From contig JAUVWI010000006.1 of assembly GCA_030604195.1 (NCBI GenBank), positions 1 to 64,000 of the forward strand: a DNA stretch of 64,000 nt. Reading direction: 5' to 3'. The notes below the pieces were generated by a model. The model was not told where the DNA came from. It was given only the letters and a program-made list of their open reading frames with translations, and ran no database searches. This stretch comes from Spirochaetales bacterium (lineage in GTDB: Bacteria; Spirochaetota; Spirochaetia; SZUA-6; DRHE01). Positions within the stretch are counted from its first letter, which is position 1; every line of letters begins with the position of its first letter. Shown one piece after another: positions 1 to 45,454 of the stretch. Position numbers and translations under genes: made by a program.

Positions 1-31
1 CTGAACACGCCTGATTTTAAAGGTAATAGCA
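1..31. repeat. Dispersed short repeat, copy 1 (3' end of trpS)
   Basis: Aligned with a fixed offset, 28 of 31 bases match the segment at 15632-15662, including an exact 20-base run. On the minus strand this copy covers the last codons and stop of trpS. In the other copy the same bases form the first codons of the LysM lipoprotein, in a different reading frame. The match may extend past the left window edge. Confidence 0.6.
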
Positions 32-1009
32 CACCGGGTTCAAACCCATTTTTTCTTTTACTTCAACCATTGTATCTGCCGCAACTTTCCGGCATTTCGC
101 GCCATTCTCATCGAGCACCTGGCGCACGTAATCTCTCTTTCCGGACAATTCCTGATAGCGCTCCTGAATTGGATCCATTACCTTCATCAGGTTTACAAGC
201 AGTTTCTTCTTACAATCGAGACAGCCCATACCTGCAGTTCGGCAGCCCTCGGCCACCTCCTGTTGCTCTCCTTCCGGAGTTACAACCTTGTGATAGCTGA
301 AGATATTGCAGATCTCCGGATTTCCGGGATCTGTGCGCCTTGCCCGCGCCGGATCGGTTTTTGCCGGAGCCAACTTTTTCCATACATTCTCCCGGGAATC
401 AAGCAGGGCAATATAATTGTCCTGGCTCTTGCTCATCTTGCTCTCGCCATCAAGTCCCAGGATGCGCGGTGTTTTGGTTAATTTGGCCCGGCACTCGGGA
501 AATGTGCGGCCATAGCGGCTGTTGAATTTTCTGGCAATTTCCCGGGCAAACTCAATGTGCTGAACCTGGTCCTGGCCAACCGGAACCACCTGTCCCTTAT
601 AGAGCAGAATATCTGCCGCCTGGAGAACCGGATAATCCAAAAGCCCTACATTGATATTCTGACGGTTCTGCCTGGCTTTATCTTTAAACTGGGTCATTCT
701 CTCAAGCTCCCCTAAAGGGGTTACAGTATTGAATATCCAGGTCAGATCTGCATGTCCGGGAACCTCGGATTGAACAAATAGTTTTGTTTTTTCCGGATCG
801 AGTCCGCAGCTATAGAGCCCCAGGGCCAGCTCAAAGACCTGGCCGGCAAAGACCTTCGGATCATACTGGATAGTGACAGCATGAAGATCAACAATAGAGA
901 AATAGCAGGAATAATCATACTGTATATCAACCCAATTTCGCACTGCCCCGAAATAATTACCCAGATGGAGCAATCCGGTTGGTTGTATGCCGCTGAAAAG
1001 TATCTTCAC
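17..1009 (-). CDS. trpS: Tryptophanyl-tRNA synthetase
   Basis: Class I aminoacyl-tRNA synthetase that charges tRNA-Trp with tryptophan in the cytoplasm. The N-terminal HIGH-type signature reads HLGNYFG near residues 16-22, and the KMSKS loop is intact (KMSKSQDN, about residue 193). The product is 330 aa, the usual size for bacterial TrpS. The start ATG is preceded by a GGAG about 14 bases upstream, and a promoter-like pair (TTGTCA-N17-TAAGAT) lies in the 80-bp gap after apgM. It may therefore be transcribed alone as well as by readthrough from the upstream ABC transporter operon. The stop lies inside a short repeat that recurs at the start of the LysM lipoprotein gene. The assignment is secure. 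Confidence 0.97.
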   Translation of the reverse strand: MKILFSGIQPTGLLHLGNYFGAVRNWVDIQYDYSCYFSIVDLHAVTIQYDPKVFAGQVFELALGLYSCGLDPEKTKLFVQSEVPGHADLTWIFNTVTPLGELERMTQFKDKARQNRQNINVGLLDYPVLQAADILLYKGQVVPVGQDQVQHIEFAREIARKFNSRYGRTFPECRAKLTKTPRILGLDGESKMSKSQDNYIALLDSRENVWKKLAPAKTDPARARRTDPGNPEICNIFSYHKVVTPEGEQQEVAEGCRTAGMGCLDCKKKLLVNLMKVMDPIQERYQELSGKRDYVRQVLDENGAKCRKVAADTMVEVKEKMGLNPVCYYL

Positions 1010-1089: not shown

Positions 1090-2265
1090 CTAAAATAAAA
1101 GATCCAGTAGCCCATGGCCTTCCCTGATGAATAAGCCTGATTTTTCCGCTTCAGCTTCCGAATATCTATTTGCCTTATCTGCCTGCACATCTTTTCCATA
1201 GAGCAGGAAAGGAACCGGATCCGAAGTGTGGGTCTTAATCCTGACAGGTGTGGGATGGTCGGGCATAACCAGAATTCTGAAGTCGCCATCAATGTTATTA
1301 AGCAACCTTCCCAGGAATCTTTTATCCAGGTCTTCGATGGCTTTTATTTTTAGACTTACATCTCCGGTATGAGAGGTCTCATCGGTTGAAACAATATGAA
1401 CAACAACAAAATCCTTTTTCTGCAGACATTCCAGGGCTGCATCCGCCTTTCCTTCGTAGTTGGTATCAATCCAACCCGTGGCGCCCTTTACATTAACCAC
1501 CTCAAGCCCGGCGAGCCTGCCGATGCCCTTGATAAGATCCACTGCCGAAATAACGGCGCCTTTTACCCCGTATTTCTTATAAAATTCTGGAATTTCAACT
1601 CCATATCCCTGACCCCATAGCCAGATCTGGGTTGCAGCTTCTTTACCCCGGGATCTCCTTCTTGCATTAACTTTGCTTTTAAGCAGGATCTCCTTTGATC
1701 TGTTCATCAGCCTGTTTACCAGGGCCTCACCTGAGCCAACCGGAAGATAGCCAGTGATGATCTTTCCTGTAATATCGTGGGGAGCAGTACATTTAAGGTT
1801 TTCAAACCTACCCTTAATCACACATAGATGGCGATAAAATACGCCGGGGTAAAAATGGATATTAATATTTGAGAGCTCCGTGTTTAAAAGAGCAATAAGC
1901 TCAACAGCATCTTTGGTCTCTATATATCCGGAAGTAAAATCTTCCATTCTGTCATCTTTAATGGTTACCAGATTGCACCTGAACGCACAATCAGCGCCGG
2001 CAAGCTCAACACCCATGCTTGCAGCTTCTATAGGACCCCTGCCGCCCGGGTAATAGAGACAAGGATCGTACCCCAGTAAGCTTAGATTAGCCACATCACT
2101 GCCGGGCTTAAATCCATCCGGAATTGTCTTCACCATACCAACCAGACCTTCCCTGGCTAATCGATCCATGTTTTCAGTTGTAGCGGCCTCTAAAGGTGTT
2201 CTGTTGCCGATTCCGGCAACAGGCTCATCAGCCATGCCATCGCCTACAACAAGTATGTATTTCAT
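1090..2265 (-). CDS. apgM: Cofactor-independent phosphoglycerate mutase, archaeal ApgM type
   Basis: Interconverts 3- and 2-phosphoglycerate in glycolysis without 2,3-bisphosphoglycerate. This is the metal-dependent, alkaline-phosphatase-fold family. The N-terminus carries the metal-binding GDGMAD motif, followed by a GRGPIEAASMG segment. Further metal-ligand regions are STDETSHTGD and MPDHPTP toward the C-terminus. At 391 aa it matches the roughly 400-aa archaeal-type family rather than the 510-aa GpmI type. A strong AAAGGAG lies upstream of the ATG. The gene starts 12 bases after the dppDF stop, so it is probably the last gene of the transporter operon. That is an odd partner for a peptide-type ABC system, and no metabolic link is obvious. 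Confidence 0.92.
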   Translation of the reverse strand: MKYILVVGDGMADEPVAGIGNRTPLEAATTENMDRLAREGLVGMVKTIPDGFKPGSDVANLSLLGYDPCLYYPGGRGPIEAASMGVELAGADCAFRCNLVTIKDDRMEDFTSGYIETKDAVELIALLNTELSNINIHFYPGVFYRHLCVIKGRFENLKCTAPHDITGKIITGYLPVGSGEALVNRLMNRSKEILLKSKVNARRRSRGKEAATQIWLWGQGYGVEIPEFYKKYGVKGAVISAVDLIKGIGRLAGLEVVNVKGATGWIDTNYEGKADAALECLQKKDFVVVHIVSTDETSHTGDVSLKIKAIEDLDKRFLGRLLNNIDGDFRILVMPDHPTPVRIKTHTSDPVPFLLYGKDVQADKANRYSEAEAEKSGLFIREGHGLLDLLF

Positions 2266-2277
2266 TTAGATCTCCTT

Positions 2278-4365
2278 TTAGCCAACCCCCAAAGAGATCA
2301 CCGGCGGCACTGAACAGAGCTCCTTCAATGGAATATGGCAGCAGATTAGATGGCCCGGGGATACTTCGATTTCAGGCGGCGGAGTGGTAACACAGATCTT
2401 TCCCGCTTTTTTGGGGCAACGTGTATGGAAGCGACAACCGGATCCGGGATTTATCGGGCTGGGAACAGCTCCTTCAAGACGGATTTTTCTAACGGCAACA
2501 TTGTTTTCAAGTATGGGAATGGCTGATAACAACGCCTCGGTATAAGGATGGTAAGGGGGTTGGAATAGCTCATAAGAAGTGCCTGCCTCACATATCTTTC
2601 CCATGTACATTACTACTATTCTATTGCTGATGTGGCGAATCACATTAAGATCATGGCCTATAAACAGGTAACTGATATCATGTTCTTTTTGGAGATCAAT
2701 GAGTAGATTAATGATTCCCGCCTGGATGGATACATCCAGACTCGATATGGGCTCATCACAGATAATCAATTCCGGTTCCGCGGCAAAGGCCCGGGCTATA
2801 CCAACCCGCTGTTTCTCACCACCGGAAAGCTCATGAGGATATCGGTGAAGATAACGTTCGCCTAATTTAACCGATTCAAGGAGCCTTGTAACCTGTTTTT
2901 GCCTCTCTTTTATAGAGCATATCTTGAAAAGTGTCAGTGGTCTGCTTAGTATCTGCTCAACGGTTTTTTGGGGATTAAGTGTGGAATCAGGATTTTGAAA
3001 AATCATCTGTATCTTTTGATTCAGTTCCCTGCTTCGCCTCTTTGCAGTTATCGATACCTTCCCGCCGTTAAAAAGAATCCGGCCATCATCTGCCTCTAAT
3101 AGCCCGACAATACAACGGGCCAGGGTAGTTTTACCGCAGCCGCTCTCTCCCACAATGCCCAGGATCTCTCCCTTCCTGCACTCAAGACTCACCCCGTCAA
3201 TAGCCAGGAGTTTACCACTGCTCACATGAAAGACCTTCTTAAGTTTATCTATTTTCAGCAGGATCTCATGGCTCTCCATTTCCGGTGGTTGTTCTGCAGT
3301 TTCTTTATGACCCTGCCGTTTACCCGAGACAGTATCGCTTAAATCAAGAACCCTTTCATAGAATATACATTTTGTCAGATGACCCGAACCGATATCGGTA
3401 AGAGGAATAACTTTTGCCAGGCAGACATCCTCCACCCGGCCACAGCGAGCAGCAAAGATACAACCGGGCTTTAAATCGGTAATATCGGGTAGAAACCCCT
3501 CGATGTCCTGGAGTCTTTCCTGCACAGCCGCCGTGCTGATCTTGGGGATGCAGCCGAGCAGCCCAAGGGTGTAGCCATGCGCCGGTCTGTTAAATACTGT
3601 GTTAACATCGCCAACCTCTATTATCTCACCGGCATAGATAATTGCCACACGCTCACACACCCTTCTTACAACCCCCAGATCATGGGTAATGTAGAGAATG
3701 GCTGAATTGTATATGTTCTTCATCTCCAAAATCAAGTCAAGAATCCGGGCTTCTGTGGTAACATCCAACCCGGTGGTCGGCTCATCCATGATCAGCAGAT
3801 CGGGCTGTGTGCTGAAGGCCATGGCAATCAACACCCGCTGCTGCTGGCCGCCGCTCATTTCGTGGGGATATTTTCTAGCCATACCCTCCGGATCAGGCAT
3901 ATTGACCTGCTTAAGCATCTCGATGGTACGCTCATAGGCCTCTTCTTTTGACAGATTGAGATGAATACGGAAGACCTCTGCAATCTGACTGCCCACCCGG
4001 TGGGAGGGATTCAGACTGGTCAGCGGTTCCTGGGGAACCAGGGACATCCGTGCGCCGCGAAGGCTTAAAAGCTCAGTGGCAGTAAGGCGGAAGATGTTGG
4101 CGCTGCGAAAAGTGATCTTTCCGTTGGCTATTCTGCCGTTACCGGGTAGATAACGCATAATAGCATAAGCTATCGTACTCTTGCCGCTCCCGGATTCTCC
4201 AACCAGGGCGAATGCTTCACCTGCCCCTATTTCAAGGCTTACCCCGCGCACGGCCTGAATATTCTTTCCCAAAGATGAATAGATTATATCCAGATTCTCT
4301 ATTACCAGTGTAGGCTCACTGTGAGTTGCAGCAAGCTCTCGCTCTGCCCTTGCTTTGTACGTCAC
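2278..4365 (-). CDS. Fused dipeptide/oligopeptide ABC transporter ATPase (DppD-DppF type)
   Basis: A single 695-aa protein carries both ATP-binding subunits of a peptide/nickel-type importer that normally come as two genes. The first half (about 20-340) has Walker A GESGSGKST, signature SGGQQQR and Walker B LLIMDEPTTG. The second half (about 370-680) has GESGCGKTT, SGGEKQR and LIICDEPISS. Each half ends with a Cys-rich oligopeptide-type C-terminal region (PGCIFAARC, PGSGCRFHTRCP), which in this family can bind an iron-sulfur cluster. It starts at GTG in a GTGA overlap with dppC, behind a GGAGGTGG ribosome site. It powers the permease pair just upstream. The substrate is not shown by sequence; the adjoining mttB-like gene suggests a methylated amine or betaine-like compound. 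Confidence 0.93.
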   Translation of the reverse strand: MTYKARAERELAATHSEPTLVIENLDIIYSSLGKNIQAVRGVSLEIGAGEAFALVGESGSGKSTIAYAIMRYLPGNGRIANGKITFRSANIFRLTATELLSLRGARMSLVPQEPLTSLNPSHRVGSQIAEVFRIHLNLSKEEAYERTIEMLKQVNMPDPEGMARKYPHEMSGGQQQRVLIAMAFSTQPDLLIMDEPTTGLDVTTEARILDLILEMKNIYNSAILYITHDLGVVRRVCERVAIIYAGEIIEVGDVNTVFNRPAHGYTLGLLGCIPKISTAAVQERLQDIEGFLPDITDLKPGCIFAARCGRVEDVCLAKVIPLTDIGSGHLTKCIFYERVLDLSDTVSGKRQGHKETAEQPPEMESHEILLKIDKLKKVFHVSSGKLLAIDGVSLECRKGEILGIVGESGCGKTTLARCIVGLLEADDGRILFNGGKVSITAKRRSRELNQKIQMIFQNPDSTLNPQKTVEQILSRPLTLFKICSIKERQKQVTRLLESVKLGERYLHRYPHELSGGEKQRVGIARAFAAEPELIICDEPISSLDVSIQAGIINLLIDLQKEHDISYLFIGHDLNVIRHISNRIVVMYMGKICEAGTSYELFQPPYHPYTEALLSAIPILENNVAVRKIRLEGAVPSPINPGSGCRFHTRCPKKAGKICVTTPPPEIEVSPGHLICCHIPLKELCSVPPVISLGVG

Positions 4366-5222
4366 AGGGGAACCACCTCCTTCTTTCTGGAGCCTTTGGC
4401 AAGGAGCAGGTCCTTCAGGCCTTCCCCCATAATATTGACACCGATCACCGATATCACTATGGCAATGCAGGGGGCGAATACCGGCCAGGGAGTGAGAAAC
4501 ATATAGCCTCTTTCACTTGAAGCCATGAGCCCCCAGTCCGGTGTTGGAGGTGGCTGGCCCAGACCTATGTAACTCAGGCTGGCGCTCAGCAGGATTGCAT
4601 AGCCAAGGCGGATCGATCCCTCTACAATAATAGTGGGCCAGAGATTGGGAAGTATTTCTCTGAAAATGATGTAAAAAGCATTCTCACCCCGGACCCTGGC
4701 CGCATCTATATATTCCAGGGGAACGATATTCAAAGCGGCGCTCCTGATTACCCGTCCCACCCGCGGTGCATAGATTATGCCAATGGCAATAGCACCGTTA
4801 ACCACACCTGGTCCTAGAACACCAACCACAAGCATAGCAAATATGAGTGTGGGAAAGGAAATGAAGATATCGTTCACCCTCATGATCAAATTATCGATCC
4901 AGCCTCCGAAATAGGCGCTTGTGGCGCCAACCAGGATGCCGATAATGAGGGCCAGCGAAGTGCTGAAGGCAGCTATTGTCAAAGTAGTCCTGGTTCCCAC
5001 AATGACCCGGCTTAAAACATCCCTGCCGAAACGGTCGGTGCCCAGCGGGAATGACCCGGAGGGTTGCTCTTTGAGATGCTCATAGTGCATCTCTTGCGGA
5101 TCGTAGGGGGCAATGCTGGTGCCGAATATGCCTATAAGAATAAAGAGCAGCAGGATAATCGAGCCGATTACCAGGCTCGGTGTAATATGGCGCCTGGTAA
5201 ATATTTTTAATATTTTCATCAT
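4362..5222 (-). CDS. ABC transporter permease, DppC type
   Basis: Inner-membrane permease of a peptide/nickel-family importer (286 aa). It has the N-terminal OppC-type segment (an early transmembrane helix followed by APYDPQEM), a conserved PLGTDRFGRDVLSR motif, about six membrane helices, and the EAA-like loop with DAARVRGEN near residue 175. This loop contacts the ATPase. The start ATG overlaps the dppB stop (ATGA), and its own stop overlaps the GTG of the fused ATPase, so the three are translationally coupled. It forms a heterodimer with DppB below the binding protein. The family is certain; the substrate is unknown. Confidence 0.93.
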   Translation of the reverse strand: MMKILKIFTRRHITPSLVIGSIILLLFILIGIFGTSIAPYDPQEMHYEHLKEQPSGSFPLGTDRFGRDVLSRVIVGTRTTLTIAAFSTSLALIIGILVGATSAYFGGWIDNLIMRVNDIFISFPTLIFAMLVVGVLGPGVVNGAIAIGIIYAPRVGRVIRSAALNIVPLEYIDAARVRGENAFYIIFREILPNLWPTIIVEGSIRLGYAILLSASLSYIGLGQPPPTPDWGLMASSERGYMFLTPWPVFAPCIAIVISVIGVNIMGEGLKDLLLAKGSRKKEVVPL

Positions 5223-6202
5223 CCGTACCTTATCCTTGGATTAACAACACTGTAAAGAATGTCCGCTACAAAGTTGGCCAGAACATAGGCCCCGGAAATA
5301 ATGAGCATCGTACCCAGGATGAGAGGGATATCACGATTATTGATGGCAATGATCATCAAATTCCCGATACCAGGGTACGAAAAAACCGCTTCCACAATTA
5401 CGACGCCGGCCAGAATATAGCCGATATTAAAGGCTATTACGGTAATGGCCGGCAAAAGCGCATTGCGCAGGGCGTGGAAAATGATCACCCTTTGGGGAGG
5501 AACACCCTTCAGCACGGCCGTGCGCACGTAATTTGTCTTCAGTTCTTCGATCATCGAGGCTCTCGTCTGCCTGACCACGTAGGCGACACTCTCGAATGAC
5601 AGGGTCAGGCTGGGGAAGATAAGCACGGTGAAGAAAAAGCTTATCTTTTTTAAGAATGAATAATCCTCATAAGGCAAGGCATTAAAAGCCGCGGGAATCC
5701 AATTCAGTTTGACGGAAAAAATGTAGATAAAAATCGATCCAACAAGAAATGCCGGAATGGAGATCATCGAGAGGGTGGAAAAAGAAATAAAGTGATCGAT
5801 AAGTGAGTTTTCCTTTACTGCCGATAAGACTCCAAGGGTCAGCCCGAAAAAAACCATCATCAAGCTGGCCGGGATTGCCAGCAACAAGGAAGCCCTGAGG
5901 CGGGCGAGAATAATCGGACCAACCGGGGCCTTCATGATCAGGGATGTGCCCATGTCTCCACGGAGAACACCTGTGATCCAGTTGAAGTACTGCCGGTAGA
6001 CGGGCAGATCTAGACCGAGCTCTCTTCGGAGCGTTTCAATTGTCTCTTCTCCCAGAGAGTCCTGGGCAACGCCTCCCAGCATCATATCCACGGCATCACC
6101 CGGCATGAACTGGATAATCCCAAAGATAAGGATAGAAATAACCACCAGGAGTATTACAGTTGTTCCCATCCTTTTTATGATGAATAACCCCAACTTGTTC
6201 AT
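5219..6202 (-). CDS. ABC transporter permease, DppB type
   Basis: Inner-membrane permease partner of the DppC-type protein (327 aa from the chosen start). The N-terminal helix is followed by the PGDA segment typical of DppB/OppB. The EAA loop (RTAVLKGVPPQRV) and a C-terminal VNPRIRYG tail are also typical. The ORF track begins 12 codons earlier, but that start lies in the loop of a hairpin and has no ribosome site. I chose the internal ATG (MNKLG), which follows a GGTGG. The stop overlaps the dppC start by ATGA. Confidence 0.92.
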   Translation of the reverse strand: MNKLGLFIIKRMGTTVILLVVISILIFGIIQFMPGDAVDMMLGGVAQDSLGEETIETLRRELGLDLPVYRQYFNWITGVLRGDMGTSLIMKAPVGPIILARLRASLLLAIPASLMMVFFGLTLGVLSAVKENSLIDHFISFSTLSMISIPAFLVGSIFIYIFSVKLNWIPAAFNALPYEDYSFLKKISFFFTVLIFPSLTLSFESVAYVVRQTRASMIEELKTNYVRTAVLKGVPPQRVIIFHALRNALLPAITVIAFNIGYILAGVVIVEAVFSYPGIGNLMIIAINNRDIPLILGTMLIISGAYVLANFVADILYSVVNPRIRYG

Positions 6203-6225
6203 ATGACCACCAAATGAATTATTAA

Positions 6226-6259
6226 GAGTGCCGTACATTCATCTAAGTGCACGGCACTC
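6226..6259 (-). terminator. Intercistronic hairpin between binding protein and permease genes
   Basis: A 9-bp perfect inverted repeat (GAGTGCCGT / ACGGCACTC) with a 16-nt loop lies between the binding-protein stop and the dppB start. No strong U-tract follows on the transcribed strand. It is more likely an mRNA-stabilising or partial attenuation hairpin than a full terminator. Confidence 0.55.
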
Positions 6260-6284: not shown

Positions 6285-7898
6285 CTATTGGATCAACCAG
6301 CCCCTATCTACCCACAGGTAGGTGAGCGGATGCACATCCACACCTCTAACATCCTGGCTCAAGGACATGTAGTGGTTCTTGAAGTAGGGAATAATCGTGA
6401 CCGAGGCTTCACTGACCATTTCCATGGCTTTCCAGTAAAGTTCTTTCCTCTTATTAAAATCTGCTTCGCCTTCCGCTTGCTCCAGCACCTTGTCCAGTGC
6501 AGGATCGCTGTAATGAGACTCATTCTTACCGCCCTCTGAGTGGTAGTAAGGCATTATGCAGGCACTGACTGTCTGCCTGCCCCCCCAGTTGCTGGTCATT
6601 AGCGGTTCCTTAAATTCAATATCGGCCCAGTAGCGGCTGATATCGATTACCTCAAGGTCGATCACAATTCCGGCCTCTTTAGCCATCTGCTTGAAGGCTA
6701 CCGCCAGCTCCATCATCCCCGGTCTGCCGGGGCTGGTGTACATTTTGAAATGGGTTCCCGGGGCAACACCGGCCTCGGCGAGAAGTTTTTTAGCCAGCTC
6801 AATATCCTGGCTCTTTTGTTTTTCATTGGGATTACCGTACACGTGGAAAGGCGGAATGGTCTGGTCGTTACCGATGATCCCGTAACCGCTAAGGGCTATC
6901 TGCAGCGCCGCCTTGCGGTTAATGATATAGGAAAAGGCCTGGCGAAGCTTATCATTGCGAAAGACCCTCCTCTCCGCTGCATTCTGGCCATCGTAAATTT
7001 CCGGATCCAGGTTCAAAACGATGGGCTGGTACCCCAGGGTGGGTGTGCCCTGGATCACAATTTTCTTATCCAGTAATGCCTGGCTGAGCAAATCGTAGCT
7101 TACCCTGTAGACCAGATCTATATCTCCACTCTTGAGAGCCGCCAGTTGTGACAGGTTCTCCTTGATGGGAATGATTCTGTACTCGTCAATATAGGGAAGG
7201 GGCTGACCGTCTTCTCCATCCATAAAGTATTTGTCATTTCTTTCCAGCACCGTAACCCCGCTGGGATCCCATTTCTTAAGCTTGAAGGGACCGGATCCGA
7301 TGGGATTGGTGTCTATCTGGTCGATATTTTCCCTGGCAACGATCCGCGGATAAACACCGCCCAGGTCAACCGGCAGGTCCAGATACGTCGTGGTAAGCTC
7401 GATTACCACCGTGAAATTGTCTTTCACCTCTATCTTATCTATCGGGCCGATGGCATTCCAGCCCCTGGGGCTTACCTCTTTATCAAGGACCCGTTCCAGG
7501 CTGAACTTGACATCTTCCGCCGTTACCTGGCGGCCATTGTGAAAATAGGCATTCTGGTTGATGTAGAAGGTCCATGTCCTGGCATCAGCTGAATGTTCCC
7601 ACCTCTCGGCAAGCTCGGGTACAGCACTGAAGTCACTGGAAATGCGGGTTAGAGTGCTAAAAATGTGGAAGGTTGCATTGTAGGCCTCTTCACCCTTGAC
7701 CTTATGAGGATCAAGCTGCATGACAGGGCTTGCCACTGCCACGGAAATTGTTCCCCCTCTTCTAACCCCACCGGCAACAGCGGCTGCTCCTGCCGGCACA
7801 GCTTCTTTCTGCCCTCCTGCAAACATTACCGACCCAACGGCCAGCAACATCACTCCCATAAGCAGGATAGTTACGAATCTTTTTCTTGATTCTTTCAT
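6285..7898 (-). CDS. Extracellular solute-binding protein, family 5 (peptide/nickel type)
   Basis: Periplasmic substrate-binding protein of the adjacent ABC importer (537 aa). It has a Lys/Arg-rich N-terminus and a hydrophobic signal sequence with an Ala-rich cleavage region (VMFAGGQKEA). The body carries the SBP_bac_5 pattern of LDPHKVKGEEA, LAERWEHSADARTWTF and YFHNGRQVTAEDVKFSLER. The GGQKEA stretch after the signal is a style seen in spirochaetal binding proteins. A good ribosome site (AGAGGAG) precedes the ATG. It is encoded 122 bases after the mttB-like gene and just before the two permeases. Family-5 proteins bind peptides, opines, nickel or glycosides, so the name alone does not give the ligand. 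The genomic partner suggests a methylated compound. Confidence 0.93.
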   Translation of the reverse strand: MKESRKRFVTILLMGVMLLAVGSVMFAGGQKEAVPAGAAAVAGGVRRGGTISVAVASPVMQLDPHKVKGEEAYNATFHIFSTLTRISSDFSAVPELAERWEHSADARTWTFYINQNAYFHNGRQVTAEDVKFSLERVLDKEVSPRGWNAIGPIDKIEVKDNFTVVIELTTTYLDLPVDLGGVYPRIVARENIDQIDTNPIGSGPFKLKKWDPSGVTVLERNDKYFMDGEDGQPLPYIDEYRIIPIKENLSQLAALKSGDIDLVYRVSYDLLSQALLDKKIVIQGTPTLGYQPIVLNLDPEIYDGQNAAERRVFRNDKLRQAFSYIINRKAALQIALSGYGIIGNDQTIPPFHVYGNPNEKQKSQDIELAKKLLAEAGVAPGTHFKMYTSPGRPGMMELAVAFKQMAKEAGIVIDLEVIDISRYWADIEFKEPLMTSNWGGRQTVSACIMPYYHSEGGKNESHYSDPALDKVLEQAEGEADFNKRKELYWKAMEMVSEASVTIIPYFKNHYMSLSQDVRGVDVHPLTYLWVDRGWLIQ

Positions 7899-8020: not shown

Positions 8021-9466
8021 CTACTCAACATCAGGCCGATGCCGGGCAACAATCCTGTCAATTGCCTTTATTGTTTCATCGGGCAAACTAACCGGCCGAT
8101 GATTTTTGAATATCTCCTTTGCCTCTTCATTCAGTTTTATTGCCAGGTCCTTTTTTCCCTCCTCTTCCCAGGTATGGTAACGCTCTCTGTTAATGAAGCG
8201 CGGGAACCACAATGACTTTCTGAATTTCTCCGCTGTATGCTCTTCCATGAGAAAATTGCTCCCCGCCATTACCCTCTCCACCACATCTAAAGCAACTGTC
8301 CGGTCGTTGAATTCCAGGGGCCGGAGCATGTACGCGACAAGATCGATGATTTCATCTGCTAATAGTATCGATTCAAAAGAAGAGGTTAAACCAGACTCAA
8401 GATAACCACAGTCATGGATGATATTGCAGCCGTTCAATGTTGCCATGTAGATGGAGAGCGCGGATTCGAGCCCCGCCTGTGCATCCAATACTTTTGAATC
8501 CGACGCCCCTGCAATGCAGAATAAGGGAAGATGATAAAAATGGGCCATATCCGCCAGCGCCTGGTTAAGGACATTCAATTCAGGAGCTCCGTACCGAAAA
8601 ATATTGGTATTCATATCCATAACGGTGGCATCACCGCCAAAAATGAACTTTGCGCCCGCTTTCTTGTTCTGAAAGATAACCAGTCCTGCCAGAGACTCGG
8701 CCAAAGTTTGTACGAGTGTTCCCTCCAGAGTAACAGGCCCTGAGGCACCCAGCATCGGACTGCCGATATAGATAAAGGGAATCTCATAATCGCAGCAGAC
8801 CAACGCCTTATCCACGCCCATCTCCGTATGCACCATGGGCGATAAAGGTTCGGTATATAGAATAAGAGGCGGCTTCCTTTTCAACTCCTCCACACCTCCC
8901 ACCGCTGCTGCAGCCATCTCGATCATGGCATTCATGTCGTTTCTGCCGTGGCCGGTTACAATAGCCGGCTTTTTCGTATTTTTTAACATGGCCTCGTACT
9001 GATGTACAAAATTGCCACCCTTTGGTGTATCATAGGCAATGCCGAAAGACATGACAAAATCAATATTGGGCAAGGCATCACAAAACCTTGCCAGCCTGCC
9101 CACATCCTCTTTCAGACAGGCTCTCCTTTCACCCGTATCAAGGTCAATGGTAGTAGGGCAATCCGACCCGGTGCCGTAATTGCAGGAGCTCTCTTTTAAT
9201 TCCATGGCGCGCTCACCATCCCGGTTAAATATCTCTATTTTACCCGGAGCGGCTTCCAGGGCTTGCAGCACGGCCCGCCTGGGTATCTTTACCCGGTCAG
9301 GGTTCGTAACATCACACCCGGCCCTGCCCAATAGGTCCAAGGCCTCTTCACTCTGCACTTTGCAGCCGATTTCTGCCATCAACCTGAGAGCGTATTCATT
9401 GACCTGGTTTATCTGCTCAGTCGATAGGATGCGGTTGTGAGATGGTTTTTCCAGCGCTATTGACAT
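8021..9466 (-). CDS. MttB-superfamily corrinoid methyltransferase, non-pyrrolysine type
   Basis: Member of the trimethylamine methyltransferase (MttB) superfamily, about the usual 470-490 aa. The ORF runs through without an internal UAG. It is therefore of the non-pyrrolysine class, whose characterised members (MtgB on glycine betaine, MtpB, MtcB) move a methyl group from a quaternary amine to a corrinoid protein. Visible family features are the N-terminal RILSTEQINQVNEYALRLM helix, the GTGSDCPTT segment and the glycine-rich YIGSPMLGASGPVTLEG loop. It starts at ATG behind CAGGAGA, with a TATAAT-like -10 at 9498-9503. It leads the transporter operon and is divergent from an Lrp-type regulator. 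No corrinoid protein, MtgA-like methyltransferase or RamA activator is in this window. The substrate is unassigned. Confidence 0.9.
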   Translation of the reverse strand: MSIALEKPSHNRILSTEQINQVNEYALRLMAEIGCKVQSEEALDLLGRAGCDVTNPDRVKIPRRAVLQALEAAPGKIEIFNRDGERAMELKESSCNYGTGSDCPTTIDLDTGERRACLKEDVGRLARFCDALPNIDFVMSFGIAYDTPKGGNFVHQYEAMLKNTKKPAIVTGHGRNDMNAMIEMAAAAVGGVEELKRKPPLILYTEPLSPMVHTEMGVDKALVCCDYEIPFIYIGSPMLGASGPVTLEGTLVQTLAESLAGLVIFQNKKAGAKFIFGGDATVMDMNTNIFRYGAPELNVLNQALADMAHFYHLPLFCIAGASDSKVLDAQAGLESALSIYMATLNGCNIIHDCGYLESGLTSSFESILLADEIIDLVAYMLRPLEFNDRTVALDVVERVMAGSNFLMEEHTAEKFRKSLWFPRFINRERYHTWEEEGKKDLAIKLNEEAKEIFKNHRPVSLPDETIKAIDRIVARHRPDVE

Positions 9467-9654
9467 CTATCTTCTCCTGAATCTTCCTTTTGTTCGAATT
9501 ATAAGACATTTTGCCTGGAGCAACTGCCTTCTTTTAATTGCGCTTATACACTAGAATTACGCTAAAGTCAATAGATAAACTAATTTTATTTAGTATATGC
9601 AATTTTTTTTTACATTAATCTGTTAAATACAATTTACAAGAGAGCCTTATCTCC

Positions 9655-9683
9655 TTGACAGGAAAGAATCAACATAGTATAAG
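9655..9683 (+). promoter_or_regulatory. Sigma70 promoter of the Lrp-family gene
   Basis: TTGACA and TATAAG are separated by exactly 17 bases and lie about 30 bases before the ATG, predicting a leader of about 20 bases that contains a GGAG ribosome site. The surrounding 9467-9710 spacer is AT-rich and must also hold the divergent mttB promoter and any regulator site. Confidence 0.7.
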
Positions 9684-9710
9684 CTGGTATTGCTGGAGTG
9701 AATTAAGCGA

Positions 9711-10172
9711 ATGAACGATGAAAAACAGGAAATAGACAAACTCGACAGAGAGATCATACTTGAGCTGCAGGAGGATGCCAGAAGACAATTTAAAACTATT
9801 GCCGGAAAACTCAAAGTTTCTGAAGGCACAATAAAAAATCGGGTTGATCGATTGATCAATCGAGGTATTCTAAAATTGGAGGCCAGAGTTAATCCATTTG
9901 CCCTGCCAAGAAGGATCTCAGCAATTGTGGGAGTAAATCTAAAAGAACGGGATCACGAAGAAAAGATAAAGGAAATTGAAAAGATTCCGGGTGTCACCAG
10001 CGTGTGGAATGCCACCGGCCGTTTTGACCTTTTCTTTGAAGTAATGGTCGATTCCCTGAATTCACTAAATGATGTTCTTTTCAGGAGAGATTTAAAAAAG
10101 ATCGGCGGTATCTCTTACACTGAAACATTTGTCATTTTGTCTTCAAATACCAAGTATTTTAAGCTATTGTAA
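9711..10172 (+). CDS. Lrp/AsnC-family transcriptional regulator
   Basis: A 153-aa regulator with an N-terminal winged helix-turn-helix (about 8-65, with IAGKLKVSEGTIKNRVDRL) and a C-terminal RAM ligand-binding domain (about 70-150, with VTSVWNATGRFDLFFEVMV). Lrp-type proteins bind amino acids or related small molecules and usually form octamers on DNA. It is divergent from the mttB-transporter operon with 244 bases between the starts, a classic local-regulator arrangement. I infer that it controls that operon in response to the transported compound or an amino-acid product. It is convergent with glgP. Confidence 0.92.
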   Translation: MNDEKQEIDKLDREIILELQEDARRQFKTIAGKLKVSEGTIKNRVDRLINRGILKLEARVNPFALPRRISAIVGVNLKERDHEEKIKEIEKIPGVTSVWNATGRFDLFFEVMVDSLNSLNDVLFRRDLKKIGGISYTETFVILSSNTKYFKLL

Positions 10173-30868: not shown

Positions 30869-32092
30869 TCATTTTCTTCTGCCCCAAAGCTCTTTTTTAA
30901 TATCGGAAATTGTCAGCCCCTTTTTCGCCATCAGAACCATTACAAAATAGGTTAAATCCGCAACCTCCCAGATCAGGTTGGCTTCATCAGTGCTGGTCAC
31001 AACCTCTTCCGCCTCTTCTAAAATCTTGTCCATAATATTTTTATCTTCTGCAGCGATCCTCGAAGTGTACGATTTTTCTGAAGGGTTATAGATTCTTTCT
31101 TTTATTACTTCATAAAGCTGCTCAAGGCTGAATTCCTGGTCACCGAAACAGGAGTATCTGTCCAGATGGCAGGCGTTGTTATTTTGCCGCACATGGAATA
31201 GCAGGGAGTCTCTGTCGCAATCATAGCGGGCTTTCAGCAGTTGCTGGTTATTTCCCGATGTCTCGCCCTTGGTCCAGAGTTTATTCCTGCTCCTGCTGAA
31301 ATAGGTTGCCTCTCCGGTGTTCAGTGCCTTTGCAAGTGATTCCTTTGAGGAATAGGCAAGCATCAGAACCTGGCCCATTTCATCCTGAACTACGGTAGGT
31401 ATCAGACCTGTGCTCCTTTCGAAATCGAGAACCCCGGTAAATGCCCCGGTAAGATCAATCTTTCCGGTATACACAGCCATTCCGACCTGGGAGTTCACAT
31501 CCATCCCCTCGAGCACCGCGATCTCGTCGACTGTTGTAATCCCACCTGCGAATGTAATTTTGAGGCCGGTGTTTTCCCTGAGCGCTTTAAGGGTCTCTAA
31601 TCTGCACCCCTGCATAAGACCCTCTCTGTCGATATCCGTATAGAGAATTTCACTGCAGTAGGGCTCAATTTCCTTGAGCTTCTGAAGAGGGGTTTGACCT
31701 GTGGAGCTGGTCCAGCCTCTATCCACTACAAAATCGCCCCTGCTGTCCAGAGCTGCTATCAGCCTTGATTTCGGAAGCTGTTTCATAAAAGCAGGTTGAG
31801 CTCTGGTTCCGATAATAATTTTTCCGGCTCCCGCTTTGAGCAGTTGTTCAGCCTTTTCCACGGTGCGAATCCCGCCTCCGACCCGGCAGTCAAAACATCT
31901 GCACAATTTTTTAATAATTTCCAGGTTGTCGCCCTTTCCAAGCGCTGAATCAAGATCGATCACGGCAATTTCTCCGTAACGGGCAAATTTCTCTGCCAGT
32001 TCAAAAATATTTTCTTTTTCAAGGACCTTTTCCGTGCCCCCTCTTAATTGAACGGCTTTTGCTTCCATAATATCTATGCTTGGTATTATCAT
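30869..32092 (-). CDS. hisAIE: HisA-HisI-HisE triple fusion (histidine biosynthesis)
   Basis: A 407-aa protein joining three histidine enzymes. Residues 1-225 are a ProFAR isomerase (HisA) barrel ([33 protein letters not shown]). Residues 230-325 are phosphoribosyl-AMP cyclohydrolase (HisI) with [18 protein letters not shown] and [10 protein letters not shown]. Residues 330-407 are phosphoribosyl-ATP pyrophosphatase (HisE) with [11 protein letters not shown] and [14 protein letters not shown]. HisI and HisE act before HisA, so the fusion holds three successive steps. HisIE fusions are common, but a leading HisA is not something I know as usual. The HisA loop after strand 5 reads DREGLMQG where most have [KR]DGT, an Asp-to-Glu change worth checking. 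It overlaps the hisF stop by 4 bases and is the last gene of the operon. Confidence 0.93.
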
Positions 32093-39843: not shown

Positions 39844-40803
39844 TTATATCAAATGGCAGGCTGCATAGTGTGAGTTTCCAGAGTCAATCAGCTCCGGCGC
39901 CTTTTCCCTGCATATTGCCATAACATGGGAACAGCGAGTATGAAACCGGCATCCGGCAGGAGGATCTATTGGACTCGGCACATCACCCATAAGTATTTCT
40001 CCCCTTTTTCTATATTTAGGATCAGGCACCGGTATTGCCGAAAGTAATGCCTTGGTATATGGATGCTTTGGATTATTAAACAATTCTATCTTTGAGGTCA
40101 TTTCAACTATTTTACCCAGATACATTACAGCTACACGGTCACTGATATGCTTTATTACGCTTAAGTCATGAGCAATAAATAAAAGGCTTAAACCGAATTC
40201 TTCCTGCAAGTCTTTAAGCAGGTTTATGATCTGAGCCTGAATTGATACATCTAAAGCCGATACTGATTCATCTGCAACTAAAAACTCGGGATTAGTAGCC
40301 AAAGCTCTGGCAATACCGATTCTCTGTCTCTGCCCGCCACTGAACTCATGAGGGTACCTGTTCAGATGCTCTTCGCCGAGTCCTACCTTTTTCATAAGCT
40401 CAGCTACTCTATCTTTCCTCTTATTATTAGGAAGCGTTGCATGTACTTCCATAGGCTCAGCAATAGCAGCTCCTATACTCATCCGGGGGTCTAAAGAACC
40501 GAAAGGATCCTGATAGATGATCATCATCTTTTCCTTCAGCTTCATCATCTCCCGCCTTTTTAAACGGGTAATATCCTGGCCGTTGAAAAAAATACTTCCT
40601 GCAGTCGGTTCCTGTATTCTTAAAATAACCTTACCACAGGTTGTCTTCCCGCATCCGGATTCTCCAACAAGCCCCAAGATTTCTTTTCTTTTTATATAGA
40701 AACTGATATCATCAACAGCCCTGACATATTCACCTTTGTTAAAAAAGGTTTTACCGGTAATAAAGTATTTTTTGAGGTTTCTAATCTCTATGAGCTTATC
40801 CAA
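39844..40803 (-). CDS. oppF: Oligopeptide ABC transporter ATPase, OppF type
   Basis: 319-aa ATPase of a peptide/nickel-type importer. It has Walker A GESGCGKTT, signature FSGGQRQR, Walker B FLVADESVSALD and the C-terminal oligopeptide-type tail (PAGCRFHTRC). The start is TTG, preceded by GGAGAGAAG. It is the last gene of the operon sbp-oppB-oppC-oppD-oppF and pairs with OppD. The substrate is unknown. Confidence 0.93.
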   Translation of the reverse strand: MDKLIEIRNLKKYFITGKTFFNKGEYVRAVDDISFYIKRKEILGLVGESGCGKTTCGKVILRIQEPTAGSIFFNGQDITRLKRREMMKLKEKMMIIYQDPFGSLDPRMSIGAAIAEPMEVHATLPNNKRKDRVAELMKKVGLGEEHLNRYPHEFSGGQRQRIGIARALATNPEFLVADESVSALDVSIQAQIINLLKDLQEEFGLSLLFIAHDLSVIKHISDRVAVMYLGKIVEMTSKIELFNNPKHPYTKALLSAIPVPDPKYRKRGEILMGDVPSPIDPPAGCRFHTRCSHVMAICREKAPELIDSGNSHYAACHLI

Positions 40804-40831
40804 TTTTACTTCTCTCCAGTATCATCTCTAT

Positions 40832-41791
40832 CTACAAATAGCATTTTATAAAATGGTTTTTTTCTACTTCTTTTAAATCAGGCATCTGCCTACGGCACGT
40901 ATTGGAGCTGAAATCGCAGCGAGGATAGAACGGACATCCGGCAGGCAGATCGATTAGATTCGGCACAAGTCCCTTTATTGTTTCCAAACGCTTAACATCT
41001 ACATTCAGCCTTGGTATTGATTTATTCAATCCCTTTGTATAGGGATGAAGCGGATTTCGAAAAAGCGTACCCACATCCGAGTACTCCACAATATGCCCTG
41101 CATACATAACAGCTACAAAATCGCACATTTCCGCAATAACCCCCAAATCATGAGTTATAAGCATAACAGATGCAGCGAATTCTTTTTTCAGGTCATTTAT
41201 CAATCTCAATATTTGCGCCTGGATTGTAACATCCAGCGCTGTTGTAGGTTCATCCGCAATAAGCAGGGTGGGTCTGCAGGATAGAGCCATAGCTATCATA
41301 GCCCTCTGTCTCATTCCGCCGGACAACTCGTGAGGATAGCTGTCCATTCTTTTATCAGCATCCGGCATTCCTACAATATTCAATACCTCTATTGTTTTTT
41401 CTCTTGCCTCCCCTTTTTTAAGTCTCTGATGTATTTGAAGGGTTTCCATAATCTCATGCCCAATTGTAAAAACAGGATCCAATGAAGTCATAGGTTCCTG
41501 AAAAATCATGGATATTTTTCTTCCCCGTATATCCCTCATCTGCTTATCGCTCAAACTTAAAAGGTCTTTGCCTTCAAAACAAATCTCCCCGTTTACAATT
41601 CTGCCAGGGGGATTTGCTATAAGCCGCATTATGGATAGGGCTGTGACACTTTTACCGCACCCCGACTCTCCGACTATTCCCAGGGTTCCCCCACGCTTTA
41701 TACTGAAACTAATCCCATCTACAGCCCTTACTGTTCCCCGGTGTGTAAAGAAAAATGTTTTTAAATCATTTATCTTAAGCAATTCTTCCAT
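40832..41791 (-). CDS. oppD: Oligopeptide ABC transporter ATPase, OppD type
   Basis: 319-aa ATPase partner of OppF. It has Walker [10 protein letters not shown], signature LSGGMRQR, Walker [13 protein letters not shown] and the C-terminal [11 protein letters not shown] cysteine motif. It begins eight bases after oppC and is separate from oppF, unlike the fused ATPase in the first transporter cluster of this window. Confidence 0.93.
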
Positions 41792-41798
41792 AATTCTT

Positions 41799-42680
41799 TT
41801 ATGTCTTAAGCCTTGGATCCAATATGTCCCGAAGTCCGTCTCCCAGGAGATTTAAGCCCAGCACAGAAAAAAGTATAGCAACTCCCGGGAAGGTCGCAGA
41901 CCACCATGCACCGCTTACAATATATGAATAGCTTTTAGAAAGCATGGCTCCCCATTCCGGTGTTGGAGGTTGGGCACCGAGCCCGAGAAATCCCAATGCT
42001 GCACAATCCAATATGGCTGTAGCAAGCATAAGGGTTCCATAAACAATTACCGGCGCTATACTATTAGGGAGAACATGGCGAAATATAATTCGAAAATTGC
42101 TTGACCCAATAGCCTTCTGTACTTCAATATATTCCATCTCCTTAATGTACAGCACTGAACTCCTTATTATTCTTGCCATCTGTGGAGTGTAAACTATACC
42201 TATGGCAATCATAGCTTTATCCAATCCCTGGCCTATCACAGCTACAATAACTATTGCTAAAAGCAGAGCCGGAAACGCAAACATAATATCAACTATTCGC
42301 ATAATCAGTGCATCAACCCATCCACCATAAAAACCTGCTAAAAGGCCGAATAAAATTCCTAAAACCATAGCAATGCTTACCGCTACAAAACCTGCGCTTA
42401 AACTGACTCTGGTTCCATAGATAATCCTGCTCAAGACACACCTTCCCAGTGCATCGCTTCCAAGGGGCATACCTTCTGCGGCATCTTTGCTCCAGAATCC
42501 CGGTTTCAAGCTGTTTGCCAGGTCCGGAGGAGATGGTGTTGGTTCATTGGGAGAGATGAAATTTGCCAGCAGTGCACATAAGACAAGAATAATAATAACG
42601 ATAAGGCCGAATAAGGCCGATTTATTATCCTTCAGCCTTCGCAATATCTCTATAGATTGATTTTCCTTTTTTCTTTCCAT
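41799..42680 (-). CDS. oppC: Oligopeptide ABC transporter permease, OppC type
   Basis: 293-aa inner-membrane permease with an N-terminal cytoplasmic tail, about six helices, the GMPLGSDALGRCVLSR family motif and the permease loop IEVQKAIGSSNFRI. It follows oppB by six bases. It forms the channel with OppB for the substrate delivered by the upstream binding protein. Confidence 0.93.
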   Translation of the reverse strand: MERKKENQSIEILRRLKDNKSALFGLIVIIILVLCALLANFISPNEPTPSPPDLANSLKPGFWSKDAAEGMPLGSDALGRCVLSRIIYGTRVSLSAGFVAVSIAMVLGILFGLLAGFYGGWVDALIMRIVDIMFAFPALLLAIVIVAVIGQGLDKAMIAIGIVYTPQMARIIRSSVLYIKEMEYIEVQKAIGSSNFRIIFRHVLPNSIAPVIVYGTLMLATAILDCAALGFLGLGAQPPTPEWGAMLSKSYSYIVSGAWWSATFPGVAILFSVLGLNLLGDGLRDILDPRLKT

Positions 42681-42686
42681 TATTTC

Positions 42687-43691
42687 TTATTTGTATTTTA
42701 TTCTGGGGTCTATGAGGACGTAGAGTATGTCCGCAATCAGGTTCACAATGACAAAAATAAAGGCAAAAAACATCACACAACCCTGTACTACAGGATAGTC
42801 CCTCATTGTTACGGCTTTAACTACGTACTTTCCGATACCGGGCCATGAGAAAACGGTTTCCGTCAGGAGGGCGCCTGCAAGCAGCAGGCCGAAGTTAAGG
42901 CCGATGACCGTAATAACCGGAATCATGGCATTCCTTACGGCGTGCCTGTAGATTACAAGCCTTTCGGATAATCCCTTTGCCCGTTCCGTCCTTATAAAAT
43001 CCTGTCTCAATACCTCCAGCATACTAGACCGGGTGACCCTGGCGACGGTAGCCATGGGTATGGTTGCCAGGGCTATGGAAGGAAGGATTAAATAGCGAAT
43101 CGTGCTTATCAGAGCCCGAAAATTCAGGGTTATTATGCTGTCCAGTATGTAGAATCCAGTGATGCGTGTGAAAGGAATCAGGACATCAATACGCCCGCTT
43201 ATGGGGAGCCACCTCAGGAACACTCCAAAAATCATCATAAGCATAATACCCAGCCAGAAAACCGGCATTGAAACACCGAAGAGGGCTATTCCCATAGTCG
43301 TGTAATCTAAAGCTGAATACTGTTTAGATGCCGAGATGATCCCTGCAATTGAGCCGACTAAAACAGCCAGCAGCATAGCGCAGATAGTCAGTTCCACGGT
43401 ATTAGGAAACCTGTCCAGTATCTCTCTGGTTACATATTCGTTAGAGGAAATTGAGCGTCCCATGTCTCCCCGAAGGGCCTGCTTCAGCCATATCCAGTAT
43501 TGAACGGGGAGCGGTTTATCCAACCCGTATTTTTCCCTTATAGCCTCTATGGTCTGCGGGGATGCGTGTTCACCTGCCATTGTTCTTGCAGGGTCACCGG
43601 GAGCTAGATGTATTAAGGCGAAAGCTAAAACCGAAGCCCCAAGGAGCACCGGTATTAACATGAGTAATCTCTTTGCAATGTACAACTTCAT
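42687..43691 (-). CDS. oppB: Oligopeptide ABC transporter permease, OppB type
   Basis: 334-aa inner-membrane permease with about six helices. It has the N-terminal AFALIHLAPGDPA segment, the loop FIRTERAKGLSERLVIYRHAVRNA (cited in part) and the C-terminal IDPRIKYK tail. It lies after a strong hairpin that follows the binding-protein gene, which could lower permease expression relative to the binding protein. Confidence 0.93.
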   Translation of the reverse strand: MKLYIAKRLLMLIPVLLGASVLAFALIHLAPGDPARTMAGEHASPQTIEAIREKYGLDKPLPVQYWIWLKQALRGDMGRSISSNEYVTREILDRFPNTVELTICAMLLAVLVGSIAGIISASKQYSALDYTTMGIALFGVSMPVFWLGIMLMMIFGVFLRWLPISGRIDVLIPFTRITGFYILDSIITLNFRALISTIRYLILPSIALATIPMATVARVTRSSMLEVLRQDFIRTERAKGLSERLVIYRHAVRNAMIPVITVIGLNFGLLLAGALLTETVFSWPGIGKYVVKAVTMRDYPVVQGCVMFFAFIFVIVNLIADILYVLIDPRIKYK

Positions 43692-43753
43692 CTGTTCATG
43701 CCTGTTATCATTTCAGCTTCATAACCCATTTTTACGGGTTTTAGTTTTCTAAA

Positions 43754-43784
43754 AATAAAGGGGTGAAAAAATCACCCCTTTATT
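43754..43784 (-). terminator. Attenuating hairpin between binding-protein gene and oppB
   Basis: A 13-bp perfect stem built around AAAGGGGTGA/TCACCCCTTT with a 5-base loop. On the minus strand it is followed by a T-rich run, so it looks like a partial intrinsic terminator inside the operon. Confidence 0.7.
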
Positions 43785-43816
43785 ATAAAAGATTCAAACT
43801 TGACAGCAGGTTTCTC

Positions 43817-45454
43817 CTACTCTAGTGATACAGGATAGAAGAATTTTCTGGATGTTGGATGGAGCACATAGCCCTGCACATTCTTCCTGAAAGCGATGTT
43901 CTGGTTTGAATGAGCCAGGTATACCCAGCAGGCATCTTCATGGATCAGCTCCAGTGCTTTTTTGTAGTACTGCGCTCTTTTTTTCACATCATAGGTCTGC
44001 AGCGCCGCAGTAAGTAAATCCTGGGCCTCTTCTTCCATATAGAAGCCGTAGTTACCAGCCGCGCCTATGTTGCCTGAATTCGGCCCGTATAACACGTTCA
44101 AGAAGTTGTCCGGATCCCCGTTATCTCCGGTCCATCCCAGGAGACACATATTATGCTTGCCAGATTCCGTTTCTTGAAGATATGTTCCCCAATCCACCTG
44201 ATAGATCTTTACATTGATGCCTATAGCGGCCAGATAGCTTTGGATTGCCTCTCCGATCTTGGGAGGATCAAACATATAGGGCCTTGATACGGGCATTACG
44301 TATAGAGTGACTTCGAAGCCGTCTGGATATCCGGCTTCAGCTAAAAGGCCTTTGCCCTTTTCGGGATCGTAGGAATAATCTACTACATCGTCATTGTATC
44401 CCAGCATAAAGGGAGGCATTCCGTTCTTTGCAACAGAAGCGGTTCCCATATAGAGATTGTCCACTATCGATTGCTTATCGATGGCGTGGTTGATGGCCTT
44501 TCTAACCTTCTTTTTGGTCAGTGGCTCAAGGTATCCGGGAGTCTTGGCCAGAGGCTCATTCGCATCGCGCTTTCCATTCTTATTGTCATCCATGTACCCA
44601 TAGCCGGAATTAATAGCCATGTATCCGATATTCATTCCAGGCTCAGTGAGAAGCTTCAAATCCTTGTTAGCTTCAATTCTGTTAAAATCAGCGGGATTGG
44701 GATATTCGATACCATGAACCTCACCCACTTCCAGGGCCATCAGTCTTGCCGAAGCATCGGGAATTACCTTGAAGATCAGTTTATCCAGTTTGGGTCTTTC
44801 CCGCCAGTAATTCTCATTGGCCGCCAGGGTGATGTGATCATCCTTCACCCATTCAACGAATTTGAAAGGACCCGTGCCGGCGGGATTCTTAAAGGCATCC
44901 TCTTTATATTTTTCAGCATTCGAAGGGCTCACAATACAAACGGTGAACATCGCCAGACTGGTCATGATCGATGCATTGATATTGCTCAAAACGATCTTTA
45001 CCTTATAGTCATCGATCTTTTCCACCTTTTCTACATCAGAGAACATGTATCCCCAGTAGACCCACTCTCCGTACTGATTGTAGGGATGATTCTGATCGTA
45101 CTGCCTGGCAAAAGAGAATACAACCGCATCGGCGTTGAAATCCGTTCCGTCGTGGAATCTAACTCCTTTTCTCAAGGAAAAAGTAATTTCCTTTCCATCC
45201 GCAGAAGTTTCCCACGATGTAGCAAGACAGGGCTGAATTTTCGTTGAGCCCTCCTTATACTCCACAAGACCCTCAAAAATATTATCCATCCTCTGGATAG
45301 ATTCCCCGTCCGTCACATCAGCAGGGTCCAGCCTGACAGCGTCTCCGCTGCTGCCGAATATAAAGGTTTTCCCTATTACTTCTTTCTGAGCTCCAGAGAA
45401 AGCAAATCCTGCTAACAGCAACAGCATTAATCCGATCATTAACACCTTTTTCAT
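43817..45454 (-). CDS. Extracellular solute-binding protein, family 5
   Basis: 545-aa periplasmic binding protein of the Opp-type importer. A signal peptide (MKKVLMIGLMLLLLAGFAFSGAQKE, cited in part) is followed by the SBP_bac_5 pattern: RLDPADVTDGES, LATSWETSADGKEITFSLRKG (cited in part) and VRFHDGTDFNADAVVFSF. It has an AAAGGAGG ribosome site and a promoter about 100 bases upstream. It is divided from oppB by a strong hairpin. The ligand, probably a peptide, cannot be read from the sequence. Confidence 0.93.
   Translation of the reverse strand: MKKVLMIGLMLLLLAGFAFSGAQKEVIGKTFIFGSSGDAVRLDPADVTDGESIQRMDNIFEGLVEYKEGSTKIQPCLATSWETSADGKEITFSLRKGVRFHDGTDFNADAVVFSFARQYDQNHPYNQYGEWVYWGYMFSDVEKVEKIDDYKVKIVLSNINASIMTSLAMFTVCIVSPSNAEKYKEDAFKNPAGTGPFKFVEWVKDDHITLAANENYWRERPKLDKLIFKVIPDASARLMALEVGEVHGIEYPNPADFNRIEANKDLKLLTEPGMNIGYMAINSGYGYMDDNKNGKRDANEPLAKTPGYLEPLTKKKVRKAINHAIDKQSIVDNLYMGTASVAKNGMPPFMLGYNDDVVDYSYDPEKGKGLLAEAGYPDGFEVTLYVMPVSRPYMFDPPKIGEAIQSYLAAIGINVKIYQVDWGTYLQETESGKHNMCLLGWTGDNGDPDNFLNVLYGPNSGNIGAAGNYGFYMEEEAQDLLTAALQTYDVKKRAQYYKKALELIHEDACWVYLAHSNQNIAFRKNVQGYVLHPTSRKFFYPVSLE

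Follow-up and report, generated by a model that had tools for sequence, protein, structure and literature searches.

There are thousands of non-pyrrolysine MttBs, most of which lack a known substrate. The glycine betaine system MtgBCA from Desulfitobacterium hafniense (MtgBCD in roseobacters) resembles the locus described in this study: it depends on an MttB-superfamily enzyme with a similar fold (TM score about 0.86) and on corrinoid and MtgA-like partners, which in our case are encoded in trans. MtgBCA differs in possessing an OpuD/BCCT carrier, whereas our locus has a peptide-type importer and an Lrp regulator, and its MttB is 27% identical to MtgB, belongs to a separate clade and has other pocket-side residues. 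The Eubacterium limosum systems were compared by their descriptions. The choline/phosphocholine system MthKBCA combines an MttB-family enzyme with a phosphate-transferring protein, as does our locus; in E. limosum it is a kinase that readies choline for MthB (PMC12155760). In contrast to the apgM-like protein and Dpp-type importer described here, however, MthKBCA has a serine-kinase-related choline kinase and an EamA-type carrier (PMC12155760). MtpB, MtcB and MtyB are also non-pyrrolysine MttB-family enzymes, and the corrinoid protein MtqC is common to several MttBs there; we propose a similar sharing of trans-encoded proteins.

The importer resembles the family-5 importers (Dpp, Opp and Nik), which likewise consist of a family-5 solute-binding protein (SBP5), two permeases and DppD/DppF-type ATPase domains. 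Unlike them, it has fused ATPases, an SBP5 that scores under all NCBIfam equivalog cut-offs and a linked MttB gene. The carriers of known quaternary-amine units are of the OpuD/BCCT type (DCMF and roseobacters), the EamA type (E. limosum) or the ProU type (a Mesorhizobium plasmid). Among the papers listed by our literature searches, none describes an MttB together with a peptide/oligopeptide (family-5) importer.

Organization of the cassette

The window is the whole stretch of DNA that was analyzed (64,000 nucleotides), and comes from a 3.83-Mb draft spirochaete genome (97% complete, 6% contamination). The sequence-only reading had proposed that an MttB gene heads an operon with SBP5, two permeases and a fused DppD-DppF ATPase (DppDF), divergent from an Lrp regulator. 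All of these genes were confirmed by domain matches, and their reading frames are intact. However, the reading missed an apgM gene at positions 1090-2265, although this gene travels with the unit. The unit consists of seven genes (Lrp, MttB, SBP5, DppB, DppC, DppDF and apgM). The features are as follows.

9711..10172, (+), divergent: Lrp/AsnC-family regulator (HTH_AsnC PF13404 and AsnC_trans_reg PF01037)
9655..9683, (+): putative sigma70-type promoter of lrp, TTGACA-17-TATAAG (kept in locus L068, described below)
9571..9543, (-): putative sigma70-type promoter of the mttB operon, TTGACT-17-TATAAG (TTGACA-17-TATAAT in L068)
8021..9466, (-): non-pyrrolysine MttB-family corrinoid methyltransferase, 481 aa (PF06253, 296 bits)
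6285..7898, (-): SBP5 with a W-x-x-R / N-E-x-H motif (PF00496, 266 bits)
5219..6238, (-): DppB-type permease (PF00528 and PF19300)
4362..5222, (-): DppC-type permease (PF00528 and PF12911)
2278..4365, (-): DppDF, 695 aa (two ABC_tran and two oligo_HPY domains)
1090..2265, (-): apgM-family protein (cofactor-independent phosphoglycerate mutase / proposed homoserine kinase), a cassette member (NF003242 and TIGR02535)
17..1009, (-): trpS, downstream of the cassette and not a member of it, as judged by its identity pattern across genomes

The spacings of MttB-SBP5, SBP5-DppB and DppDF-apgM are 122, 46 and 12 bp, respectively, and DppB/DppC and DppC/DppDF overlap by 4 bp. No Rfam match to an RNA element or riboswitch was found upstream of the operon. 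With SBP_bac_5, BPD_transp_1 permeases and oligo_HPY ATPases, the importer belongs to the family-5 (Dpp/Opp/Nik) class. The best solved relatives of the SBP5 are 5U4O and AgaA. The predicted structure of the SBP5 (pLDDT 59) was too poor for assignment of a ligand class, and this approach was dropped.

Several other regions of the contig were recorded. A separate second SBP5/Opp operon with unfused ATPases and without MttB is located at 39844-45454 (-) of the window, and an unusual HisA-HisIE fusion lies inside a his operon at 30869-32092 (-). Just to the right of the window, the contig that bears the MttB unit has a cluster resembling cobalamin assembly and uptake genes (L037:3767-10811; C66:67767-74811), in which CobT and CobQ were confirmed and the other genes were assigned by inspection.

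The MttB enzyme and its partners in trans

The MttB protein matches PF06253 over nearly its full length (residues 12-477; 296 bits against a cut-off of 25). In contrast, its score against the pyrrolysine-MttB model TIGR02369 is 391 bits, under the cut-off of 525. The gene has no in-frame stop or amber codon, and Ala321 aligns with the pyrrolysine residue of Methanosarcina MttB (7XCL), in agreement with its earlier description as a non-pyrrolysine enzyme. The predicted model (pLDDT 87) has a TIM-barrel fold, and its best PDB match is MtgB (9YCE), followed by 2QNE and 7XCL; the TM score against 9YCE and 2QNE is about 0.86. The sequence identities are 27% to MtgB, 28% to Pyl-MttB and 26% to 4YYC. 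In a tree of 58 MttBs, which was obtained by a short search with SH-aLRT as the sole support and does not include MtpB, MtcB, MtyB or MthB, the window MttB falls into a 13-member clade (SH-aLRT 100, stem 0.84). This clade is separate from MtgB, Pyl-MttB, 4YYC and all paralogs of the source genome, which encodes 13 full-length MttBs as well as fragments. Judged by sequence, the window MttB is thus a member of the non-pyrrolysine MttB superfamily and not an MtgB. Plasmid-encoded relatives reach at most 31% identity, and their neighbors are ProU-type or other carriers.

Several residues, D279, E248 and F265 among them, are strictly conserved within the clade and occur in no other MttB compared. 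In the predicted model, D279 directly follows the barrel strand 274-277 on the pocket side. Furthermore, S236, which is typical of the clade, aligns with Met249 of MttB. Because pocket-side residues differ, a pocket and hence a substrate different from those of MtgB are plausible. The suggestion that the unit may act on a new substrate is consistent with the separation of the window MttB from the glycine betaine enzyme.

The unit might nevertheless handle a known betaine (glycine betaine, proline betaine, carnitine, gamma-butyrobetaine or phosphocholine), with the peptide-type importer as an alternative carrier. Quaternary amines are the substrates of all characterized non-pyrrolysine MttBs (PMC8604678, PMC12155760), and the clade separation comes from a tree without MtpB, MtcB, MtyB and MthB. 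However, the low identity to MtgB, the separate clade and the OpuD/BCCT, EamA or ProU-type carriers of known betaine units all speak against this explanation. We consider it rather unlikely, although it is the strongest of the alternatives.

The sequence-only reading had observed that neither a corrinoid protein nor an activator is present in the window, and had suggested that a corrinoid partner could be encoded elsewhere. The genome-wide matches indeed fall on other contigs. There are nine B12-binding_2 matches over several contigs, and at least six apparently distinct MtgC-like corrinoid proteins possess the D-x-H-x-x-G motif. On contig C111, an activator with 2Fe-2S and RACo domains adjoins a pterin-binding MtgA-like enzyme. 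Thus, the MtgA-like methyltransferase and the activator proposed by that reading are both present; however, the activator is of the RACo type and scores far under the RamA cut-off. Neither MtrH nor the acetyl-CoA synthase CdhC was found in the source genome, and MtrH as the methyl acceptor and acetogenesis via CdhC were rejected. The most likely fate of the methyl group is therefore the folate pool, from which it would be oxidized or used in biosynthesis.

The source genome also encodes at least five MtmB homologues without pyrrolysine on contigs C117, C29, C48 and C111 (L021 9667-11046 and 17955-19307; L023 6271-7731; L029 691-2076; L031 4377-5753), mostly beside corrinoid proteins and at times beside MttB. 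On contig C81 (L020:4807-10323), an 1838-aa protein with an amidotransferase-like N-terminal start (MCGIVGYFG) is encoded between two MttB genes, and AOR-like and Fe-alcohol-dehydrogenase-like genes are nearby.

Transfer of the cassette and recurrence of the MttB-importer pairing

Orthologs were sought in 80 relatives, in 84,980 species genomes and, for two phyla, in about 390 genomes each. These genomes are draft MAGs, and independent copies of the cassette are few. In a congener (G001), DppC-DppB-SBP5-MttB was found with 93-94% identity on a contig cut at both ends. In G059, a spirochaete from another family, locus L068 contains Lrp-MttB-SBP5-DppB-DppC-DppDF-apgM in the same order with 84-93% identity. 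The flanks of this cassette are unrelated to those of the window, and its 56-kb contig carries a Tex gene without a homologue in the window's family. The window trpS is 94% identical to that of the congener and 71% identical within the same family. In contrast, the trpS of G059, which is not linked to the cassette, is 36% identical to the window trpS. The high identity of the cassette against that of trpS, together with the unrelated flanks and Tex, indicates that the seven-gene cassette has moved horizontally between families as a unit. L068 is the sole near-identical transferred copy that was found.

A more distant arrangement is present at locus L092 of a MAG labeled as deltaproteobacterial, where Lrp directly precedes MttB (70% identity). 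The Lrp copies that adjoin orthologous MttB genes at L068 and L092 are 93% and 83% identical to that of the window, respectively. A stretch of 6 kb at L092 also includes an apgM gene (47%), another Lrp, a corrinoid protein and, where the contig ends, the start of an SBP5 (its N-terminus) that is 52% identical to one SBP5 of the source genome. Conservation of the importer holds for three close copies (the source genome, the congener and one horizontally related genome). It does not extend to the other MttB orthologs at 63-72% identity, which have no such importer nearby and in whose genomes the best SBP5 match is 31%. No consistent neighbor was found across the wider clade: the neighbors include kbl-tdh, asd, PhnW-PhnX, a choline-kinase-like protein, AOR with a second MttB, and argJ. 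Because the farther orthologs lack the importer, an import unit is not a property of the entire MttB clade.

Two spirochaete MAGs share syntenic clusters (L095:423-8783 and L096:918-9251). Besides an ortholog of the MttB in the window, these encode another MttB, an AOR-like protein, putative cyclases and an old-yellow-enzyme-type flavin oxidoreductase. These clusters are a possible complete pathway for another substrate.

The combination of MttB, a peptide-type importer and Lrp had been regarded as a possible new unit. The pairing is real at this locus, but it is not unique, since other MttB lineages are located on SBP5/Dpp operons. In the source genome, contig C32 carries a second operon (SBP5-DppB-DppC-fused DppDF-MttB), and further loci were found in G006 (L072), G011 (L086), G444 (L135) and Chloroflexi (L136, which also holds a corrinoid protein); L135 and L136 were found with SBP5, not MttB, as the query. 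Thus, MttB and the peptide-type importer form a recurring pairing, with six separate linkages in several phyla. Two direct MttB-SBP5 abutments are observed in the source genome, against about 0.1 expected by chance in a rough estimate that assumes 13 MttB, 14 SBP5 and about 3800 genes.

In the SBP5 tree, the MttB-linked proteins fall into one group of 11 members (SH-aLRT 98), 8 of which are MttB-linked. This clustering was matched in 1 of 500 label shuffles, with three of the rows being near-copies. The linkage is not absolute, because two unlinked SBP5s from G445 are inside the group. W-x-x-R and N-E-type motifs, in a variant form at L136, are common to the MttB-linked SBP5s; they were spotted post hoc and are absent from 10 other scorable SBP5s of the source genome. 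By inspection, other MttBs of the source genome lie beside other ABC classes. This suggests that the carrier class may reflect the MttB substrate.

It is conceivable that MttB and the importer are neighbors without a common substrate: the importer would be an ordinary peptide or nickel type and the MttB substrate would enter the cell otherwise. Most MttB orthologs indeed have no importer beside them, and SBP5 systems are common (14 genes in the source genome). However, the whole cassette was transferred intact, the pairing is seen in six separate linkages with more abutments in the source genome than expected by chance, and the linked SBP5s cluster in the tree. Mere proximity is accordingly an unlikely explanation.

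Two related loci were also noted. On contig C41 (L028:1892-10708), a split-ATPase Opp operon is followed, after a few genes, by an MttB broken into two frames; this is possibly a decayed third MttB-importer pair. In G006 (L072:8341-19532 and L120:2714-5875), an MtmB-like protein, MttB, an indolepyruvate-ferredoxin-oxidoreductase-like pair and an SBP5/Dpp importer are encoded in a region that also has aconitase-X-like and opine-dehydrogenase-like genes. This gene content suggests that a methylated amino acid is completely degraded.

The apgM gene and the proposed pathway

The apgM protein scores 538 bits against NF003242 (cut-off 426) and 527 bits against TIGR02535 (cut-off 446), two models that do not distinguish the mutase from the homoserine kinase. 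TIGR02535 proteins are proposed homoserine kinases, of which the kinase activity is unproven (PMC7311316). The gene was found with MttB in three lineages, with 85% identity in the transferred cassette and, as described above, 47% at L092. It could also be a hitch-hiking housekeeping gene.

Taking these results together, we think it probable that the locus is a horizontally mobile catabolic unit for import and corrin-dependent demethylation of a quaternary amino-acid-like solute. The family-5 ABC importer would take up an amino-acid-like zwitterion that is quaternary or N-methylated in another way, and MttB would move one methyl group to the Co(I) corrinoid of a trans-encoded MtgC-like protein. 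The MtgA-like enzyme would then hand the methyl group on to tetrahydrofolate, and the RACo-type activator would rescue oxidized corrinoid. Lrp may sense the substrate or product and control the divergent operon. The apgM-type protein may work on the substrate or the demethylated product, and its label as a proposed homoserine kinase suggests a homoserine- or threonine-like skeleton. Several observations weigh against this explanation: the importer is absent beside the MttB of most genomes with 63-72% orthologs, and apparently from these genomes; their neighborhoods vary widely; the operon lacks a corrinoid protein; there is one near-identical transferred copy; and apgM may have hitch-hiked.

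DGTS betaine lipids carry N,N,N-trimethylhomoserine as their head group. A more specific explanation is that the substrate is a homoserine-type betaine (for example, N,N,N-trimethylhomoserine or its glyceryl ether derived from DGTS), with MttB starting the demethylation and apgM phosphorylating the released homoserine. The retention of apgM with MttB in three lineages, its match to TIGR02535 and the presence of kbl-tdh (L090) and asd (L094) among the clade neighbors are consistent with this explanation, and a peptide-type carrier would fit a bulky zwitterion. However, the homoserine kinase activity of the TIGR02535 family is unproven, and the kbl-tdh and asd neighbors are single cases, which we regard as a hint of homoserine/threonine chemistry and a lead only. 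In this specific form the explanation is quite improbable. Finally, the cassette of G059 (estimated contamination 8%) could be a binning artefact, which would confine conservation to one genus; but its contig, bearing a Tex gene without a homologue in the window's family, does not derive from that family irrespective of its bin, and this explanation is very improbable.

If the import-and-demethylation unit is as proposed, the conserved importer, regulator and tailoring gene accompanying one MttB clade offer an experimental handle on a new substrate through ligand screens of the binding protein, and the recurrent MttB-SBP5 pairing offers a way to sort other orphan MttBs. Corrin-dependent demethylation would also be extended to a non-acetogenic spirochaete, as CdhC was not found. 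More tentatively, the locus may possibly represent a new B12-dependent import and demethylation route for a quaternary amino-acid-like compound, perhaps including homoserine-type betaines of betaine lipids, in which a dedicated peptide-type importer subfamily, repeatedly paired with MttB enzymes, spreads as a cassette among anaerobes.

A different chemistry may apply at one other member of the clade. At L098:1346-4912, genes for phosphonoacetaldehyde hydrolase and 2-aminoethylphosphonate transaminase adjoin an MttB that is orthologous to that of the window (64%). These phosphonate neighbors hint at trimethylaminoethylphosphonate as a possible substrate of the MttB at that locus.
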